A DNA stretch of 36,632 nt. It comes from Oerskovia douganii (GTDB taxonomy: Bacteria; Actinomycetota; Actinomycetes; Actinomycetales; Cellulomonadaceae). Below the pieces are notes generated by a model, which did not search any database, was not told where the DNA came from, and worked only from the letters and a program-made list of their open reading frames with translations. The translations under genes and the position numbers were made by a program. Location of the stretch: NCBI RefSeq assembly GCF_015142735.1, contig NZ_JACSPN010000016.1, forward strand, positions 61,916 through 98,547, in the 5' to 3' direction. This document shows positions 12,427 to 24,099 of this stretch, piece by piece; position 1 is the stretch's first letter, and every line of letters begins with the position of its first letter.

Positions 12427-13836
12427 TCAGGGGTGCGCCGCTGCGGCGTCGGCGGAGGTCGGTGCGGCCGCGCCCGCCCCCGCCGCGGGGCGTGCGAGCC
12501 CCAGGTGGTCGCGCAGCGTCGTGCCGGTGTACTCGGTGCGGAACGCACCGCGCTCCTGGAGGAGCGGCACGACCTGGTCGAGCACGTCGTCCAGGCCCGT
12601 GGGCGTCAGGTGCGGCACGAGGATGAAGCCGTCCGACGCGTCCTCCTGCACGTGCCGGTCGATGTCGTCGGCGACCTGCTGGGCCGTGCCCACGAACCCG
12701 CCCCGACCCGACACCTCGATCACGAGGTCGCGGATCGACCAGCCGTGGGCGGCGGCCTGCTCACGCCAGGCGCGGACCACCGGGGCGGGGTCCTTGACGT
12801 GCCGGACACGGCCGCGCGTGATGCTCAGGTGCTCGAGGTCGGGCTCGACGTCGGGCAGCGGCCCCTCGGGGTCGTAGGCCGTGAGGTCACGGCCCCAGAC
12901 CTGCTCGAGGAACGCGATGGCCGTGCGCCCCGGCACCTGCTGGAGGCGGATCTCGCGTGCCCGCTCGGCGGCCTCCTCGGCGGTGTCGCCCAGGACCACG
13001 ACCGTGGCCGGGAGGATCTTGAGCGAGTCGCGCTCGCGGCCGTGGGCCGCGAGGCGGGACTTCACGTCGGCGTAGAACGCCTGGCCGTCCTCGAACGCGG
13101 AGTGCGCCGAGAAGACGACGTCGGCCGTCGCGGCCGCGAAGTCCCGCCCGTCGGCCGAGTCGCCGGCCTGGAACAGGACCGGGTGCCCCTGGGGCCCGCG
13201 CGGGGTCTCGAAGCGGCCCGACACGTCGAAGTGCTTGCCGTGGTGCGCGAACGGGCGCACGAGCCCGTCCTCTGGGCCTACCGCGTCGTCGTCCCACGCG
13301 TCCCAGAGCTGCCGGGCCAGGGCCACGAGCTCGCCCGCGCGCTCGTACCGCTCCTCGTAGGGCAGGAACCCGCCGCGGCGGAAGTTCGCGCCCGTGAAGG
13401 CGTCGGGGCTCGTGACGAGGTTCCAGGCCGCGCGGCCGCCCGACAGGATGTCGAGGGTCGCGAACTGGCGCGCCAGCTCGTACGGCTCGTTGAAGGTCGT
13501 GCTGACCGTGCCCGCGAGGCCCAGCCGTTCGGTCACCGCGGCGAGCGCGGCCAGCACCGGGAGCGTGTCGGGACGGCCCACGACGTCGAGGTCGTGGATC
13601 TGCCCCTTGTGCTCGCGCAGCCGCAGGCCCTCGGCCAGGAAGAAGAAGTCGAGCTTCGCCGCCTCGGCCCGGCGGGCGAGGTGCTCGAACGAGCTGAAGT
13701 CGATCTGGCTGCGCGAGGCGGGGTCGCTCCAGACGGTCGTGTTGTTGACGCCCGGGAAGTGGACGCCCAGGTGGATCTGCTTGCGCGGCCGACCGTCACG
13801 CTGACGGGTCGACGACGAGGGGGCGGGGTGCGTCAT
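12427..13836 (-). CDS. NtaA/SnaA/DszA-type FMN-dependent monooxygenase
   Basis: A 469-residue luciferase-like monooxygenase of the long NtaA/SnaA/DszA group, which includes dibenzothiophene-sulfone and nitrilotriacetate monooxygenases and Bacillus YtnJ. Diagnostic stretches are the N-terminal HLGVHFPGVNNTTVW, FEHLARRAEAAKLDFFFLAEGL, LDILSGGRAAWNLVTS, the block LWDAWDDDAVG, GRFETPRGPQGHPVLFQAGDS and the C-terminal LVPLLQERGAFRTEY..TTLRDHLGL. It uses FMNH2 made by a separate reductase. Only 12 bases separate it from the monooxygenase gene upstream. C-terminal tail is Ala-rich. Substrate unknown, probably a sulfur compound. Confidence 0.9.
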   Translation of the reverse strand: MTHPAPSSSTRQRDGRPRKQIHLGVHFPGVNNTTVWSDPASRSQIDFSSFEHLARRAEAAKLDFFFLAEGLRLREHKGQIHDLDVVGRPDTLPVLAALAAVTERLGLAGTVSTTFNEPYELARQFATLDILSGGRAAWNLVTSPDAFTGANFRRGGFLPYEERYERAGELVALARQLWDAWDDDAVGPEDGLVRPFAHHGKHFDVSGRFETPRGPQGHPVLFQAGDSADGRDFAAATADVVFSAHSAFEDGQAFYADVKSRLAAHGRERDSLKILPATVVVLGDTAEEAAERAREIRLQQVPGRTAIAFLEQVWGRDLTAYDPEGPLPDVEPDLEHLSITRGRVRHVKDPAPVVRAWREQAAAHGWSIRDLVIEVSGRGGFVGTAQQVADDIDRHVQEDASDGFILVPHLTPTGLDDVLDQVVPLLQERGAFRTEYTGTTLRDHLGLARPAAGAGAAAPTSADAAAAHP

Positions 13837-13848
13837 GGTGGCGGGTCC

Positions 13849-15129
13849 TCAGGCGATCGCGGCGGCGTAGCGGTTGACGGGGCGCGCGAGCCCCAGGGTG
13901 TCCCGCAGGGTCGTGCCCGGGTAGGTCGACCGGAAGACGCCCGCCTCCTGGAGCAGGGGCACGACGCCGTCGACGAGGGCGTCGAGGTCCGTGCGGAGCG
14001 AGGACGGACGGATCGTGAACCCGTCGGCGGCCCCCGTGTCGAACCACTCCTCGACGACCTCGGCGAGGTCGCGGGCCGTGCCCACGTGCGTGAGGGACTC
14101 GGTGTCCCACGTGATGCCCTCGAGCCCTTCGAGCAGGTCGAGCCGTGCCTGCGCGCTCGCCCGGTCCTGCCCGATCACGGCGTACAGGTCCACGAGGACG
14201 CGCAGCCCGTCGGGGTCGCGGCCGGCCTGGGCCGCCTCGGTGCGCACCCGGTCGCGCAGCACCCGGGCGGCGTCGAGGGTCGTGGCCCGCACCCGCACGA
14301 CGTCGGCGCGACGCCCCGCGAGGGCCAGTGCCTCGGCGGAGCCGGCGCGCACGACGACCGGGGGCTGGGCCTGGGGCGAGCGCGGGGTGATCGACGGGCC
14401 CTTGACCGCGAACCGGACCCCGTCGTAGTCGACGTGGTGGACCTTGTCGCGGTCGATGAACCGCCCCGAGGCGACGTCGCGGATCTCGGCGTCGTCCTCC
14501 CACGAGTCCCACAGGCGGCTCACGACCTCGATGGACTCCTCGGCCTCGGCGACCGCGTCCGCGGTGCCCTGCGCCTCCTTGCGCCCGAACAGCGCGGCGG
14601 CCGCCTCGGACGTCGACCAGCCGACCTGCCACGCGGCCCGCCCCGCGCTCACGTGGTCGATCGTCGCGATCGCCTTGGAGACGTGGAACGGCTCGGTGTG
14701 CGTCGTGTCGACCGTCGCCACCAGACCGATGCCCGACGAGCGCGGGGCCAGTCGCGCGGCCACCAGGGCCGCGTCGAGCCTGCCCCGCAGGGTCGTGTTG
14801 CGCGTGGGCTGCAACGAGAAGGTGTCGTCGAACAGCGCGAAGTCGAGCACGCCGCGCTCCGCCGTCGCGACGAGCTCCTGGAGCCGGTGCGCGTCGAACT
14901 CGCGCGGCGACTGCGACCCGACCGCGCGCCAGACGCCCGCCCGGGCTCCGGCGTCGGACAGGTCGACGCCGAGGTGCACCGAACGGCGCGGGTGCTCGTC
15001 GAGCAGGTCGTCGCCGCCGGCGAGCGCGTCGAGGCCCTCCGCGGCGGGCTGCGACGAGGGCTGCTCGTCGGGCTGTGCGGTGGGCGGGGACGTGGGGGCG
15101 AACAGCGGGGTCAGGTTCGAGTCAGGCAT
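13849..15129 (-). CDS. LLM monooxygenase, divergent NtaA/SnaA/DszA-type
   Basis: A 426-residue luciferase-like monooxygenase. It shares with its downstream neighbour the long-form landmarks IATIDHVSAGRAAWQVGWS, LWDSWEDDAEI, FAVKGPSITPRSPQAQPPVVV and the ending LLQEAGVFRSTYPGTTLRDTLGLARP, but the N-terminal domain is more divergent and the enzyme is shorter. The frame is open further upstream, but ATG at 15129 is chosen because it has GGAG upstream and the preceding residues are low-complexity. It is the first enzyme after the Cys leader peptide, separated from it by a 231-base untranslated stretch. Confidence 0.83.
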   Translation of the reverse strand: MPDSNLTPLFAPTSPPTAQPDEQPSSQPAAEGLDALAGGDDLLDEHPRRSVHLGVDLSDAGARAGVWRAVGSQSPREFDAHRLQELVATAERGVLDFALFDDTFSLQPTRNTTLRGRLDAALVAARLAPRSSGIGLVATVDTTHTEPFHVSKAIATIDHVSAGRAAWQVGWSTSEAAAALFGRKEAQGTADAVAEAEESIEVVSRLWDSWEDDAEIRDVASGRFIDRDKVHHVDYDGVRFAVKGPSITPRSPQAQPPVVVRAGSAEALALAGRRADVVRVRATTLDAARVLRDRVRTEAAQAGRDPDGLRVLVDLYAVIGQDRASAQARLDLLEGLEGITWDTESLTHVGTARDLAEVVEEWFDTGAADGFTIRPSSLRTDLDALVDGVVPLLQEAGVFRSTYPGTTLRDTLGLARPVNRYAAAIA

Positions 15130-15320
15130 GGGTGGTTCCACTCCGGAGGTCGAGGGTGGGGTCGCCGGGACGCGCCGCCGCAGGGTAGGGGGGCATCGCG
15201 ACGGGTCGCGGGAGCACGGGGGTGCAGGGGTGGGCCGGCGCGTGCGGTGACCGGTGGCCGGGCAGCCCGAGGTGTCGGTCTGCCGCGGCGGCCGTGTCAC
15301 GGGCGGGGCGGTCCAGGAGT

Positions 15321-15360: not shown

Positions 15361-15468
15361 TCAGCAACAGACGCGGCCCGGGACGACGGGGCGCCCGGAC
15401 GGACAACACGCTCGACGCGCGGTGCCGGACGACGGGTCCAGGAGGGCGAGCGAACGGCTGGTGTCCAT
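15361..15468 (-). CDS. cysteine-rich leader peptide 1 (candidate attenuator)
   Basis: A 35-residue frame with a strong ribosome site (GGAGGAGGGCCC directly before the ATG). It contains Cys-Cys at residues 21-22 and again at 34-35, the last two codons before TGA. Three of the four cysteine codons are TGT, a rare choice in this GC-rich DNA. It starts about 57 bases after the predicted transcription start and precedes the 14-gene sulfur run. In mycobacteria, short polycysteine frames upstream of sulfur genes act as cysteine-responsive attenuators; this placement and composition match. The function here is inferred. Confidence 0.65.
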   Translation of the reverse strand: MDTSRSLALLDPSSGTARRACCPSGRPVVPGRVCC

Positions 15469-19179: not shown

Positions 19180-19292
19180 GTGAGGACTCCGTCGTTTGTC
19201 GGGAAGAGTCCGGCGAGCCTAGCGGTCCGCGGCGAGGCGACGACCACGACGCTCAGTCCGCGCTCGACGAGTGCGATGGCGTGGGGAGTCCG

Positions 19293-19315
19293 TTCACCCG
19301 GAGAAACCGGGCGAA
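19293..19315. promoter_or_regulatory. dyad in the promoter region of the second sulfur operon
   Basis: An interrupted inverted repeat, TTCACCCGG and CCGGGCGAA around AGAAA, with 8 of 9 pairs matching, lies about 65 bases upstream of leader peptide 2. A weak -35-like TTCACC forms its left edge; no convincing -10 follows. It may be an operator. Confidence 0.35.
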
Positions 19316-19379
19316 ACATCGTCTCGGAGACCGGATGGGGGCTTGTGCCGGGCCTGCGCGGGCCGACAGGATCACCGCC

Positions 19380-19484
19380 ATGCGCTTCGACGTCAGGGCC
19401 CACGAGCACCCCGGGACACCGGTGCGCCTCGTGGTGCGCCGCGCCGTCGACCTGCGCCTCGTCGCGGGCTGTCTCTGTCGGTAG
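19380..19484 (+). CDS. cysteine-codon leader peptide 2 (candidate attenuator)
   Basis: A 34-residue frame with AGGA 8 bases before the ATG. It ends RRAVDLRLVAGCLCR, with cysteines at 31 and 33, both TGT. The Arg-Arg-x-Val-Asp-Leu core and Cys near the end resemble the short peptides that often precede sulfur-assimilation genes in actinobacteria and are annotated as putative leader peptides. It lies 200 bases upstream of the SsuA-type binding protein gene on the same strand, with a strong hairpin in between. Cysteine-dependent ribosome stalling is inferred. Confidence 0.7.
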   Translation: MRFDVRAHEHPGTPVRLVVRRAVDLRLVAGCLCR

Positions 19485-19496
19485 CCCTGCCCCGGC

Positions 19497-19523
19497 CCGG
19501 CCGCAGCTCGCGCTGACGGCCGG
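19497..19523 (+). promoter_or_regulatory. attenuator-like hairpin after leader peptide 2
   Basis: A 7-bp outer stem (19497-19503 with 19517-19523) is stacked on a 4-bp inner stem (19504-19507 with 19512-19515) with one bulged A and a TCGC loop. It begins 12 bases after the leader stop, where a ribosome finishing or stalled on the last Cys codons would affect its folding. The remaining 160 bases up to the binding-protein gene show no trusted frame. Confidence 0.55.
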
Positions 19524-19684
19524 TTGATCCGCGCACCTCGCACCCTCACCATCCCGCTCACGCCGTACCGCCGCCGGAATCTCGCGCCCGCAGGCGGTCT
19601 CACGCACCGAGCGCCTCCCTTCCCTCCCTGCCGCCGGCGTACCCACGACCGGTCGGCCCCCGTACCCGAAGACCTGGAGCTCCC

Positions 19685-20785
19685 ATGCCCCGCACCCTCA
19701 GACCCCATGCCCGCCGACTGGCTCGCACCGCACTGCGGGCCGCCGTGACCGTGGGCCTCGCCGCGGTGCTCGTGGCCTGCTCGGCCGCGAGCGCCGAGGA
19801 GGCCGTCGTCGGCGAGTCCGGCAAGGCCGTCCTGCGCTACGACGGCTCGGTCGGGCAGGTGACGTTCCCCGAGCTCGCGGCGGACCTCGGCTACTACGAG
19901 CGCGTCGAGCTCGAGTGGGTCGGCGACTCGACGGGCGGCCCGCAGAGCATCCAGGCCGCGGCGACGGGCTCGACCGACTTTGGTGGTGCGTTCAACGGGG
20001 CGATCGTCAAGCTCAAGGCGTCCGGCTCGCCCATCACGTCCGTCATCTCCTACTACGGCTCGGACGAGCTGTCCTACGGCGGCTTCTACACGGTCGAGGG
20101 CAGCCCCATCACCGAGCCCCGCGACCTCGTCGGGAAGTCGATCGGGGTCAACACGCTGGGTGCGCAGAGCGAGTTCCTCATCCGCGAGTGGCTCTCGCGC
20201 GGCGGGCTGACCGCGGAGGAGATCGACCAGGTCGAGCTCGTCGTCGTCCCGCCCGTCAACGCCGAGCAGGTGCTGCGCGAGGGGCAGGTCGACGTCGTGG
20301 GGCTCTCGCGCGTCTTCCAGGACAAGGCCCTGGAGCGCGGCGGGATCACGCAGCTCTTCAGCGAGACCTCGCTGTACGGGAACTTCTCCTACGGGACGTA
20401 CATCTTCCGTGACGAGTACGTCGAGAAGAACCCCGAGGTCGTGGAGGACTTCGTGCAGGGCACGGCGCGCGCGATCCGGTGGGCGCAGGTCACCCCGGTC
20501 GAGGAGGTCCGCGCGCGGTACACGAAGATCATCGAGGGGCGTGGGCGCGGCGAGAACACAGACCTGGTGCCGTACTGGAAGTCGGCGAGCATCACGGCCC
20601 CGGGCGGCGTGATCGCCGAGGAGGAGATCGCGACGTGGATCGACTGGCTCGTCCGCGAGGGCGAGCTGGAGAAGGACCGGTTCTCCCCCGACGACATCTA
20701 CACCAACGAGCACAACCCGTACGCGAACGGCACCTACGCGAAGGACGCGGGCCCCGACGGCGAGCCGGTCGAGGTCGCGCCGTGA
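19685..20785 (+). CDS. ABC transporter substrate-binding lipoprotein, SsuA/NMT1 type
   Basis: A 366-residue lipoprotein with an Arg-rich start, hydrophobic segment and lipobox LVAC (Cys about 32). The mature part is like aliphatic-sulfonate/nitrate/taurine binding proteins: LRYDGSVGQVTFPELAADLGYY near the start, IQAAATGSTDFGGAFNGAIVKLKASG (ligand loop), DLVGKSIGVNTLGAQSEFLIREWL and a REGQVDVVGL segment. GGAG precedes the ATG. First gene of the second sulfur-type operon, translationally coupled to the ATPase gene by a GTGA overlap. Ligand class (sulfonate) is inferred from family and from the monooxygenase in the operon. Confidence 0.9.
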   Translation: MPRTLRPHARRLARTALRAAVTVGLAAVLVACSAASAEEAVVGESGKAVLRYDGSVGQVTFPELAADLGYYERVELEWVGDSTGGPQSIQAAATGSTDFGGAFNGAIVKLKASGSPITSVISYYGSDELSYGGFYTVEGSPITEPRDLVGKSIGVNTLGAQSEFLIREWLSRGGLTAEEIDQVELVVVPPVNAEQVLREGQVDVVGLSRVFQDKALERGGITQLFSETSLYGNFSYGTYIFRDEYVEKNPEVVEDFVQGTARAIRWAQVTPVEEVRARYTKIIEGRGRGENTDLVPYWKSASITAPGGVIAEEEIATWIDWLVREGELEKDRFSPDDIYTNEHNPYANGTYAKDAGPDGEPVEVAP

Positions 20786-21672
20786 GCGGGGCCGGCACCG
20801 TGGAGGCCGTCGCACCCGCTCCGGCGCCGTCGGACACGGTCCCCGGCACCGTCCCCAGGCTGCGCCTCGAGCACGTGCGCAAGGAGTTCATCGTGCGCGA
20901 CGCGACGGCCGGCCGCGGGGCGCGCAAGCGGTTCACGGCCGTCGAGGACTTCACGCTCGACGTCCGAGCGGGCGAGTTCCTGACGGTCGTCGGCCCCTCG
21001 GGCTGCGGCAAGTCGACCCTGCTGGACCTGCTCGGCGGACTCACCGAGCCGACGTCGGGTCGCATCCTGCTCGACGGCGAGCCCGTCACGGGACCGGGCC
21101 TGGACCGGGGCGTCGTGTTCCAGCAGTACGCGCTGCTCCCCTGGCGCTCGGCCCGCGCGAACGTCGAGTTCGGGCTCGAGGCCAAGGGCGTCGCGCGGGC
21201 TGCTCGTGCCCGGGTCGCGGACGAGTACCTCGACCTCGTGGGACTCACTGCCTTCGCGGACCGGTACCCGCACGAGCTGTCGGGCGGCATGAAGCAACGG
21301 GTCGCGATCGCGCGCAGCCTCGCGTTCGACCCCGAGGTACTCCTCATGGACGAGCCCTTCGCGGCCCTCGACGCCCAGACGCGCGAGTCCCTCCAGGACG
21401 AGCTCCTGCGGATCTGGCGCGCGACGGGCAAGACGATCGTCTTCATCACGCACGGCATCGAGGAGTCGGTGTACCTCGGGCAGCGCGTCGCGGTCATGAC
21501 GCCCCGCCCGGGGCGGTTGCAGACCGTGATCGACGTGGACCTCGCAGGGGCCGCAGACCCTGGCAGCGACGACGGCGAGCACGACGACGTCCGTTCGTCG
21601 GCGCGCTTCGGCCGGTACCGGCACGAGGTGTGGAGCGCGCTCCACTCACCGAAGGAGGACGCCCATGTCTAG
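20782..21672 (+). CDS. ABC transporter ATP-binding protein, SsuB/TauB type
   Basis: A 296-residue ATPase. Walker A GPSGCGKST (71-79), the segment FQQYALLPW (113-121) which is typical of the nitrate/sulfonate/taurine group, signature LSGGM (166-170), Walker B VLLMDEP (186-192) followed by FAALDAQTRE. GTG at 20782 overlaps the binding-protein stop (20783-20785) and fixes the start. The acidic C-terminal tail carries a DDGEHDD cluster. It overlaps the permease gene by 8 bases. Confidence 0.93.
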   Translation: MSGAGTVEAVAPAPAPSDTVPGTVPRLRLEHVRKEFIVRDATAGRGARKRFTAVEDFTLDVRAGEFLTVVGPSGCGKSTLLDLLGGLTEPTSGRILLDGEPVTGPGLDRGVVFQQYALLPWRSARANVEFGLEAKGVARAARARVADEYLDLVGLTAFADRYPHELSGGMKQRVAIARSLAFDPEVLLMDEPFAALDAQTRESLQDELLRIWRATGKTIVFITHGIEESVYLGQRVAVMTPRPGRLQTVIDVDLAGAADPGSDDGEHDDVRSSARFGRYRHEVWSALHSPKEDAHV

Positions 21673-22591
21673 CTCCACGGCCCCGCACGCCCCCGGGCGC
21701 GAGGTACGTCCTGTGACCACCACGCCCCCGACGCCGTCGGCCGTGGACACCGTCGCGTTCGCCGACCCGCCCACGCTCGGTCGCCGTCAGGTGCTCACGG
21801 CCGACGACCCGACACCATCGTTCGGCGCCCGCCTGCGCGGGGCCGGGGTCCGTGTCCTGCGCGCCTCGGCCGCGATCGTGCTCTTCCTGGTGATCTGGGA
21901 GGTGGCGCCTCGCGTCGGGCTCGTCGACCAGGTCTTCCTGCCGCCGCTCAGCGCGGTCCTCGAGTCGTTCTGGGGGCTGCTCGTGAGCGGCGAGCTGGGC
22001 AAGCACGTGGGGACGAGCCTGACCCGGGCCGGCACGGGCTTCACGATCGCGGTCCTGCTCGCGATCCCGCTGGGCATCGCGATCGGGTGGTGGGCGGGGG
22101 TCGCCCAGTTCCTCGGCCCGTTCCTCGAGCTGTTCCGCAACACCGCGGCCCTGGCCCTCCTGCCCGTCTTCATCCTGATCCTGGGGATCGGCGAGACGTC
22201 GAAGATCACGCTCGTCGTCTACGCGTGCTTCTTCCCGATCCTGCTCAACACGATCGCGGGGGTCCGGACGGTCGACCCGCTCCTCGTGAAGTCGGCCCGC
22301 TCCCTCGGGCTGCCTCCCGTGCGGCTGTTCCAGAAGGTCGTCCTGCCGGCCGCGGTCCCCACGATCTTCACGGGGATCCGCATGGCCGGGACGAGCTCGA
22401 TCCTGGTGCTCATCGCCGCCGAGATGGTCGGGGCCAAGGCCGGCCTCGGGTACCTCATCACCTACGCGCAGTTCAACTTCCAGATCACGAACATGTACGC
22501 CGGGATCATCGCGATCTCGCTCGTCGGCGTCTCGATCAACGCCGTGCTCGTGAGCCTCGAACGGCACTTCTCGCGCTGGCGCACGACCTGA
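21665..22591 (+). CDS. ABC transporter permease, SsuC/TauC type
   Basis: A 308-residue membrane protein with a 60-residue cytoplasmic tail and about six membrane segments. The sulfonate-transporter landmarks are IVLFLVIWEVAPRVGL, FLPPLSAVL, the EAA-type loop KSARSLGLPPVRLFQKVVLP and the ending MVGAKAGLGYLITYAQ. GAAGGAGG lies upstream of the ATG, which overlaps the ATPase gene. It forms the channel of the importer with the two preceding products. Confidence 0.93.
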   Translation: MSSSTAPHAPGREVRPVTTTPPTPSAVDTVAFADPPTLGRRQVLTADDPTPSFGARLRGAGVRVLRASAAIVLFLVIWEVAPRVGLVDQVFLPPLSAVLESFWGLLVSGELGKHVGTSLTRAGTGFTIAVLLAIPLGIAIGWWAGVAQFLGPFLELFRNTAALALLPVFILILGIGETSKITLVVYACFFPILLNTIAGVRTVDPLLVKSARSLGLPPVRLFQKVVLPAAVPTIFTGIRMAGTSSILVLIAAEMVGAKAGLGYLITYAQFNFQITNMYAGIIAISLVGVSINAVLVSLERHFSRWRTT

Positions 22592-22659
22592 CCCGCACGC
22601 CCACCCGGCGCAGGACCACCCGAGCACGACCACCCGCACCCACGACCAGAGGACGCACC

Positions 22660-24099
22660 ATGACCCAGCAGCCCCGCCAGCTCAGCCTGAACCTCTTCAT
22701 CCACCCGGCCGGCCACCACGAGGCGGCCTGGCGCCACCCGGACACCCAGCCCGAGCGCATCTTCACGGCCGACTTCTACACCGAGCTCGCCCGCCGGGCG
22801 GAGGCCGCGACGTTCGACGCGGTGTTCTTCGCCGACGGCCCCGTCCTGCACGACGGCGTCGAGTTCAACAGCGTGGGTCGCCTCGAACCGATCCTGACGC
22901 TCGCGTCGATCGCGGCCGCGACGACGCGGATCGGCCTGATCGCGACCGCGTCGACCACGTTCTACGACCCGTACAACCTGGCGCGGCTCTTCTCGACGCT
23001 CGACCACCTGAGCGACGGGCGAGCGGGGTGGAACATCGTCACGACCGCGAGCGAGGACGCGGCCCGCAACTTCGGGCTGGACTCGCACCCCGACCACGTC
23101 GAGCGGTACGCGCGGGCGGCCGAGTTCGTCGAGGTCACCACCCGGCTCTGGGACAGCTGGGAGGACGACGCGGTCCTGATCGACCGTGCGGCGGGCCGCT
23201 ACGCCGACCCGGCGAAGATCCACGACGCGGCCTTCCGCGGCGAGCACCTGCGGGTCGAGGGCGCGTTCAACGCTGCCCGCTCGCCGCAGGGGCACCCGGT
23301 CCTGGTGCAGGCGGGCGCGTCGAACGAGGGCAGGGCGTTCGCGAGCCGCTACGCCGAGGCCATCTTCACCGCTCACCAGCGGCTGTCCGACGCGCAGGCC
23401 TTCTACGCCGACATCAAGGCCGGGGCCGAGGCCCTGGGCCGCTCGCGCGACGCGGTCAAGATCCTCCCCGGGATCAGCCCGTTCATCGCGTCGACCGAGG
23501 ACGAGGCCCGCGCCCTGGAGCGCGAGTTCAACGAGCTCACGGTCCCCGAGTACGGGCTGCGCCAGCTCGAGAAGCTCACGGGCGTCCGGCTCGACCACGC
23601 GCAGCTCGACGGCCCCGTCCCGACCGAGCTGTTCGCCGACGCGGGCGACGTGACCGACAACTCGCGCAGCCGCCTCCAGGTCGTCGCGGGCATCGTCGAG
23701 CGCGAGCAGCCCACGGTCCGCGGGCTGCTCCACCGCCTCGCGGGGGCGCGCGGGCACCGGGTCGTCGCGGGCACGCCCGAGCAGGTCGCGGACACGATCG
23801 AGGAGTGGTTCACGCAGGGCGCTGCCGACGGCTTCAACGTCATGCCGCCGTACCTCCCGGGCGGCCTGGACGCGTTCGCGGACCACGTCGTCCCGATCCT
23901 GCGCGAGCGCGGCCTGTTCCGGACGGAGTACGAGGGGACGACGCTGCGCGACCACCTCGGCCTCGAGCGCCCCGCGAGCCGGTACGCCTCGACCGCCGAT
24001 GCCCCGCACGAGGCGAGCGCGCAGGCGAGCGCACCGGACGAGGCGAGCGACGCCGTCGGGCAGGAGGGTGCCCGGACCACGGAGCCGGCCCTCGCGTGA
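22660..24099 (+). CDS. NtaA/SnaA/DszA-type FMN-dependent monooxygenase
   Basis: A 479-residue long-form luciferase-like monooxygenase. N-terminal LSLNLFIHPAGHHEAAWRHP is the classic opening of this group, followed by RRAEAATFDAVFFADGP, LDHLSDGRAGWNIVTT, LWDSWEDDAVL, PQGHPVLVQAGASNEGRAFA and the closing LRERGLFRTEYEGTTLRDHLG. It needs FMNH2 from a separate reductase; none is encoded in this operon, so it may share the nitroreductase-like protein of the other operon. AGAGGA precedes the ATG. It is 68 bases after the permease and overlaps the MFS gene. The C-terminal tail after about residue 440 is low-complexity (DEASDA type). Confidence 0.93.
   Translation: MTQQPRQLSLNLFIHPAGHHEAAWRHPDTQPERIFTADFYTELARRAEAATFDAVFFADGPVLHDGVEFNSVGRLEPILTLASIAAATTRIGLIATASTTFYDPYNLARLFSTLDHLSDGRAGWNIVTTASEDAARNFGLDSHPDHVERYARAAEFVEVTTRLWDSWEDDAVLIDRAAGRYADPAKIHDAAFRGEHLRVEGAFNAARSPQGHPVLVQAGASNEGRAFASRYAEAIFTAHQRLSDAQAFYADIKAGAEALGRSRDAVKILPGISPFIASTEDEARALEREFNELTVPEYGLRQLEKLTGVRLDHAQLDGPVPTELFADAGDVTDNSRSRLQVVAGIVEREQPTVRGLLHRLAGARGHRVVAGTPEQVADTIEEWFTQGAADGFNVMPPYLPGGLDAFADHVVPILRERGLFRTEYEGTTLRDHLGLERPASRYASTADAPHEASAQASAPDEASDAVGQEGARTTEPALA

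Follow-up and report, generated by a model that had tools for sequence, protein, structure and literature searches.

In Mycobacterium smegmatis, the leader RNA of a cysteine-responsive system reportedly adopts a structure that masks the downstream ribosome-binding site (RBS), with refolding freeing this site. In the portions available to us, papers that cite Canestrari 2020 credit it with describing attenuation at translation in this species (PMC13236596, PMC9031893), Shell 2015 treats Cys leader peptides (PMC4633059), and Seliverstov 2005 presents candidate cys leader peptides in Mycobacterium, P. acnes and B. longum (PMC1262725). Here we compare these systems with a locus of Oerskovia douganii, found in a stretch of 36,632 nucleotides that was analysed as a whole and is referred to below as the window. 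We consider it highly probable that the operon at this locus, for sulfonate-type uptake and desulfonation, is governed by a leader peptide that responds to cysteine and belongs to the NF042934 class.

The leader frame, MRFDVRAHEHPGTPVRLVVRRAVDLRLVAGCLCR, extends over 19380-19484 (+) and has 34 codons from its ATG. A sequence-only reading of the window had proposed a 34-residue frame ending in C-L-C-R, with TGT for both Cys residues, and this is what we found: the TGT codons lie at 19470-19472 and 19476-19478, separated by one codon (CTC), and a single Arg codon stands between the second of them and the TAG stop at 19482-19484. There are two candidate starts, the ATG at 19380, with CAGGAT 7 nt upstream, and a GTG at 19422, where the match to the NF042934 profile begins. 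The conserved core, VRLVVRRAVDLRLVAGCLCR (19422-19484 (+)), contains profile positions 1-19, with the second TGT of the putative sensor codons TGT-CTC-TGT (19470-19478 (+)) at position 19. Among five Oerskovia species, six of the 21 core codons vary, five synonymously and one nonsynonymously, whereas five of the 14 codons of the N-terminal extension (19380-19421) vary, one synonymously and four nonsynonymously. Judged by these substitutions, purifying selection acts on the core peptide and not on the N-terminal extension, which points to the core as the functional part of the leader.

The window peptide matches all 19 positions of NF042934 (E 2.4e-4), scoring 20.6 bits as the 34-residue peptide and 23.2 bits as a 20-residue form, and in neither form does it reach the curated cut-off of 27 bits. 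The orthologous leader of O. rustica passes this cut-off, with 30.8 bits in the genome search and 34.2 bits for the peptide alone; at one conserved position the window peptide carries Leu where the O. rustica leader has Arg. A search of the genus gave an NF042934 match at E <=0.1 in all seven Oerskovia genomes, above the cut-off in six of them. The window leader belongs to the NF042934 class, a placement that we base on its orthology with the O. rustica leader and not on the score of the window peptide itself. As expected for this class, the residue at the end of the profile is a Cys, only a few codons from the stop, and the leader is followed by a sulfur- or cysteine-related operon, whose substrate we judge from resemblance. 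The profile match and the O. rustica orthologue together support the likeness to actinobacterial leader peptides that had been suggested from the window. The likeness is limited for NF042933, the Ms5788A equivalog, to which the window peptide scores 18.1 bits against a cut-off of 45, with C-L-C in place of a polycysteine tract; an Rfam search gave no match at gathering scores.

Open frames are abundant in GC-rich DNA, and the window peptide itself stays under the curated cut-off, so that the frame could be a chance ORF that resembles leader peptides and regulates nothing. We regard this as very improbable. All 19 profile positions are matched, whereas the weaker NF042934 matches elsewhere in the same genome are partial (<=14.8 bits), and the peptide is kept in all five Oerskovia genomes in which the binding protein of the downstream operon occurs. 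Furthermore, the leader is found at the operon in seven genomes from two genera, with core changes biased towards synonymous ones in five of these seven, and it uses TGT despite a strong preference for TGC. On these sequence comparisons, the leader frame is confirmed to be beyond chance.

Downstream of the leader, all on the + strand, lie genes for an NMT1/SsuA-like substrate-binding protein (19685-20785; TIGR01728 below cut-off), an ABC transporter ATPase (20782-21672, start codon provisional; nearest models of the taurine/nitrate type, below cut-offs), an ABC transporter permease (21665-22591; nearest models SaoP/SsuC/TauC, below cut-offs) and an FMN-dependent monooxygenase of the NtaA/DmoA family (22585-24099; TIGR03860, 556.6 bits against a cut-off of 279.7). 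By resemblance, this would be an operon for sulfonate-type uptake and desulfonation. The claim that a cysteine leader precedes an SsuABC-type operon is therefore supported in the form of an Ssu-like transporter/monooxygenase operon.

We then asked how closely the leader and the operon are linked. The binding protein was detected at E <=1e-80 in 19 of 200 Cellulomonadaceae genomes and, at the 1e-80 cut-off, was absent from two of the seven Oerskovia genomes. In all five Oerskovia genomes carrying it, the leader lies 182-200 nt upstream of its gene. No leader was found within 700 nt of the 14 binding-protein orthologues outside Oerskovia, and when up to 4.2 kb upstream were read, two of the 14 had the leader ahead of a reordered operon. 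These two Cellulomonas-type genomes represent a second genus, in which the order is leader-ATPase-permease, with ATPase and permease homologues of 72-77% identity and the binding protein further on; the Cellulomonas cellasea record (L014) has the order ATPase-permease-binding protein-monooxygenase. In the remaining 12 of the 19 genomes, we saw no leader in the upstream sequence covered (in one case 2.2 kb, where the contig ends), and three of these 12 loci gave only fragmentary profile matches (E 0.36-0.77). Whichever of the two gene orders is present, the operon thus begins with the leader. The association persists despite gene rearrangement, and would add a sulfonate-type operon of the Cellulomonadaceae to those under ribosome-based control by cysteine. 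Other leaders of the class precede a variety of proteins. Eight such proteins, picked by eye among 66 loci, were searched against NCBIfam: one, an SsuA-family binding protein, scored above cut-off, while an NtaA/DmoA monooxygenase, two NirA-like reductases, a sulfurtransferase, a MoaD-like carrier and a dicarboxylate/glutamate-type symporter were indicated below cut-off and one had no NCBIfam match.

The Cys codon at profile position 19 is nearly invariant. Of 131 leaders, 128 have TGT there; this set comprises all matches ending at position 19 from collections of 83 and 48 (matches ending elsewhere were excluded), and it includes related, hence non-independent, genomes and perhaps some weak matches that are no leaders. 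By subset, the count is 123 of 126 in the main set (76/78 from Cellulomonadaceae and 47/48 from other Actinomycetota) and 5/5 of the remaining matches. Collapsing the 126 leaders to distinct 36-nt cores left 91, of which 88 have TGT and three TGC. The other Cys codons of the same 126 leaders are TGT in only 38 of 85 cases (Fisher p 7e-20 versus position 19), and frames downstream of the leaders, chosen by size and G+C at codon positions rather than by annotation, rarely use TGT (2/67 Cys codons at Cellulomonadaceae loci and 6/46 in a second set of frames). We relied on these frames instead of the codon usage of the window, where a rough count with some uncertain gene frames gave 25 Cys codons. 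Within the Cellulomonadaceae alone the contrast is weaker (76/78 at position 19 versus 24/29 at other Cys codons, p 0.015), partly because Oerskovia leaders end in TGT-TGT or TGT-CTC-TGT. TGT would be decoded by wobble by a tRNA-Cys with anticodon GCA.

The other conserved positions behave differently at the codon level. The Asp nine codons before the sensor Cys, D(-9), is present in 126/126 leaders, R(-13) in 125/126 and R(-6) in 120/126, values that are inflated by profile selection, which leaves codon choice unaffected. Both GAC and GAT encode D(-9), with GAT in only 19/126, which rules out a general preference for T at the third position, and the Arg residues are encoded by five or six different codons. 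With Asp and Arg codons varying and the Cys codon fixed, Asp and Arg are kept as amino acids and Cys as a codon. As a separate observation, the Ser at profile position 16, Ser(-3) relative to the sensor Cys, is encoded by AGC in 95 of 103 leaders, compared with 19% AGC in the rough codon count of the window. Among the papers listed in a literature search that covered few subscription journals, no title or opening of an abstract reported the TGT choice in Cys leaders, and we regard the near-invariant TGT sensor codon as a codon-level signature of the class.

The window contains a second Cys leader, MDTSRSLALLDPSSGTARRACCPSGRPVVPGRVCC (15361-15468 (-)), ahead of NtaA/DmoA-family monooxygenase genes, with the consensus (R/G)R.CC..GRPVVPGRVCC-stop. 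It is in frame in six of seven Oerskovia genomes, with 33, 35 or 40 residues and length changes of whole codons only, and 23 of its 24 Cys codons are TGT; no NCBIfam model matches it. The two leaders are unrelated in sequence, as had been claimed. The further suggestion that the two operons gained cysteine control independently stood in part: the leaders are of different kinds, but that at 19380-19484 comes from an existing class, has a class copy elsewhere in the genome and also precedes this operon in a second genus, which makes it unlikely to have arisen for this locus. Three NtaA/DmoA-family monooxygenase genes are found in two divergent operons (12427-15300 (-) and 22585-24099 (+)), each with its own kind of Cys leader.

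The class copy elsewhere in the genome is a second NF042934 member, ending in ARRDVDLRRVASALCC, ahead of a gene for a dicarboxylate/glutamate-type symporter. Our guess is that this symporter takes cystine, a substrate that no model names. The ARRDVDLRRVASALCC leader is nearly invariant at the DNA level in six Oerskovia genomes (L001, L016-L019 and L021, on other contigs), and upstream of it lies an 8-bp inverted repeat, CGGCTACC-ATC-GGTAGCCG, perfect in four of the six.

A promoter-like pair, TTGTGC-N18-CAGGAT (19343-19372 (+)), ends 7 nt before the ATG and is conserved in 5/5 Oerskovia genomes with the leader; it was read from the alignment, the -35 element being our own reading, and a generic promoter scan around the leader called no promoter. 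The position of CAGGAT, 7 nt before the ATG, suggests a leaderless transcript. The Cellulomonas-type leaders have TAGTTT 7 nt ahead of their ATG, and in the class at large a -10-like hexamer was seen before 51 of 244 in-frame starts versus 19 of 185 out-of-frame starts (p 0.0035). Within a subgroup of the class (L036, L043, L049, L137-L139, L145 and L146), the hexamer TANNNT lies 6-7 nt upstream of the ATG in leaders like MPLVLVRRVHVDLLRTGSCLC. The leaders of L036 and L049 precede what we take to be an oxygenase of the 2-oxoglutarate/isopenicillin-synthase type, and that of L043 presumably a thioredoxin-like protein; neither protein gave a family match.

Further upstream, the block GGGCGAAACATCGTCTCGGAGACCGGAT at 19309-19336 has a single variable base among five Oerskovia species and contains the palindrome GTCTCGGAGAC (19321-19331). 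The palindrome was rejected as an operator, since the 14-mer around it is too frequent for a single one, with 209 genomic sites at <=2 mismatches versus 32 for the pattern read backwards; the block as a whole is a possible operator.

The sequence-only reading had also placed an 11-bp stacked hairpin within 12 bases of the leader and had interpreted the two as a stall-dependent attenuator. The sequence at 19497-19523 (+), 12 nt after the stop, can indeed fold into a GC-rich hairpin (11 bp, one bulge), but the stability of this hairpin is not clearly above chance (z = -1.09, 300 dinucleotide shuffles). The corresponding values in four other Oerskovia were +0.36, 0.08, -0.36 and -0.59, and the folds after the two Cellulomonas-type leaders gave -0.01 (G092) and -1.86 (G022, a different GC hairpin), such that stability fell within the shuffle range in 7/7 leaders folded (z -1.86 to +0.36). 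The outer stem is broken in one genome (G004), and the stem differs in relatives while the leader is conserved, close to the outcome that the sequence-only reading had itself named as speaking against its proposal. There is no U tract after the hairpin, and we found no terminator-like sites in 19180-19760.

These findings bear on a trp-type attenuator, in which stalling at the Cys codons would keep the 19497-19523 hairpin from acting as an intrinsic terminator, a design classically recognised by a conserved terminator hairpin with a U tract and by an alternative antiterminator. The presence of the GC hairpin just past the stop is what such an attenuator would look like, as is the G022 leader with its own GC hairpin, and some pairing at the hairpin site withstands base changes among the five species. 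However, the consensus fold of these species, in which 8 of 48 pairs change on both sides in some sequence, has a covariation term of +0.78, that is, no net support; this fold also draws a second possible hairpin near the binding-protein RBS (19630-19657 (+)). Informal inspection of the folds showed no antiterminator. The spacing between the last Cys codons and the hairpin, claimed to be what a stall-dependent attenuator needs, argues against one: the Cys codons are only 2-4 codons from the stop, and going by the size of the footprint a ribosome stalled there would obstruct the hairpin no more than a ribosome at the stop. We rejected the hairpin as a terminator on stability, conservation and the U tract, yet note that the window (-1.09) and G022 (-1.86) folds lie on the stable side. 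An intrinsic terminator ranks third among the output steps that we weighed, and we consider it unlikely. More generally, a GC hairpin beside a leader in GC-rich genomes should not be called an attenuator without shuffles and relatives.

Between the leader and the binding-protein gene lies an untranslated, C-rich spacer (19485-19684 (+); C 0.51 and G 0.26 in the first 190 nt). Its approximately 200 nt, with 59 YC dinucleotides versus 19 on the complement, would suit Rho-dependent attenuation, whereby release at the leader stop exposes the spacer and the stalled ribosome, or its consequences, prevents termination. Rho was also proposed, weakly, for mycobacterial cys leaders that lack terminators, in the part of Seliverstov 2005 available to us (PMC1262725). 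C-richness, however, is unspecific and was rejected as evidence for Rho: spacers after 91 class leaders are no richer in C than the similar regions upstream of the 14 orthologues of the binding protein that lack a leader next to them (p 0.11), two of which have a leader about 2.2 kb upstream. In addition, stalling at 2-4 codons from the stop would leave the spacer almost entirely uncovered by the ribosome. Termination by Rho within this spacer ranks second, as a somewhat doubtful candidate.

Refolding that frees the downstream RBS is in our analysis the most likely of the three output steps, although we would stop just short of calling it probable. It is favoured by the M. smegmatis precedent only. 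When the RNA was folded either free or with a ribosome modelled on the stop or the first Cys codon, a check that had been proposed along with the attenuator, the binding-protein RBS was about equally accessible in five species with no consistent change, and by this measure RBS unmasking received no consistent signal. Nor was consistent pairing between leader and RBS found in the five species, in long GC-rich folds that are unreliable.

Translation of the leader, stalling, the direction of control and the output step are what we infer from these patterns of conservation, codon choice and linkage, and we envisage them as follows. Transcription probably starts at or beside the ATG, which would allow ribosomes to load immediately. 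When Cys-tRNA is plentiful, TGT-CTC-TGT would be read through, the ribosome released at the stop and the operon kept low. When Cys-tRNA is scarce, the TGT codons would hold the ribosomes up and the operon would be turned on. The choice of TGT, together with the conserved Arg and Asp residues that would then lie in the exit tunnel, probably makes this stall easy to trigger.

For the class as a whole we offer a tentative proposal, which we think has a reasonable but minority chance of being correct. Actinobacterial Cys leaders may be peptide-assisted, codon-specific sensors of cysteine, not plain 'hungry-codon' attenuators, in which wobble-decoded UGU is required and the nascent R(-13)..VD(-9)L..R(-6) in the exit tunnel primes the ribosome for arrest. 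One such module would then stand ahead of symporters, NirA-like reductases, SsuA transporters and the sulfonate-type operon. The near-invariant TGT allows a direct and cheap test of how the class senses cysteine.

How the window leader relates to the systems described above can be stated in detail. In the parts of the mycobacterial reports available, the Ms5788A and Ms4527A leaders (NF042933, NF042936) share with it a short, probably leaderless ORF, terminal Cys codons and cysteine or sulfur genes downstream, whereas the window leader has no polycysteine run, is 200 nt away from the first gene and shows no RBS unmasking in folds. The leaders of Seliverstov 2005, in the portion available, likewise have Cys codons adjoining the stop, and those of Mycobacterium have no conserved terminator hairpin, but they belong to other operons and carry Cys runs instead of C-L-C (PMC1262725). 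The uORFC-8-2 Cys attenuator before cysS in Rhodobacterales is similar in that its Cys codons are thought to stall the ribosome, and different in having a terminator stem with a U run and in its codon choice, with UGC dominant there and TGT near-invariant in NF042934 leaders (PMC8632094, also available in part). Closest is NF042934 itself, a cis_reg_atten model named 'putative leader peptide' (Actinomycetota). The window leader departs from it in its score below 27 bits, its Leu for Arg and its two TGT codons spaced by CTC, and shares with it the full 19-position match, the Cys at position 19 near the stop, the RR-VDL core and the position ahead of a sulfur-type operon.
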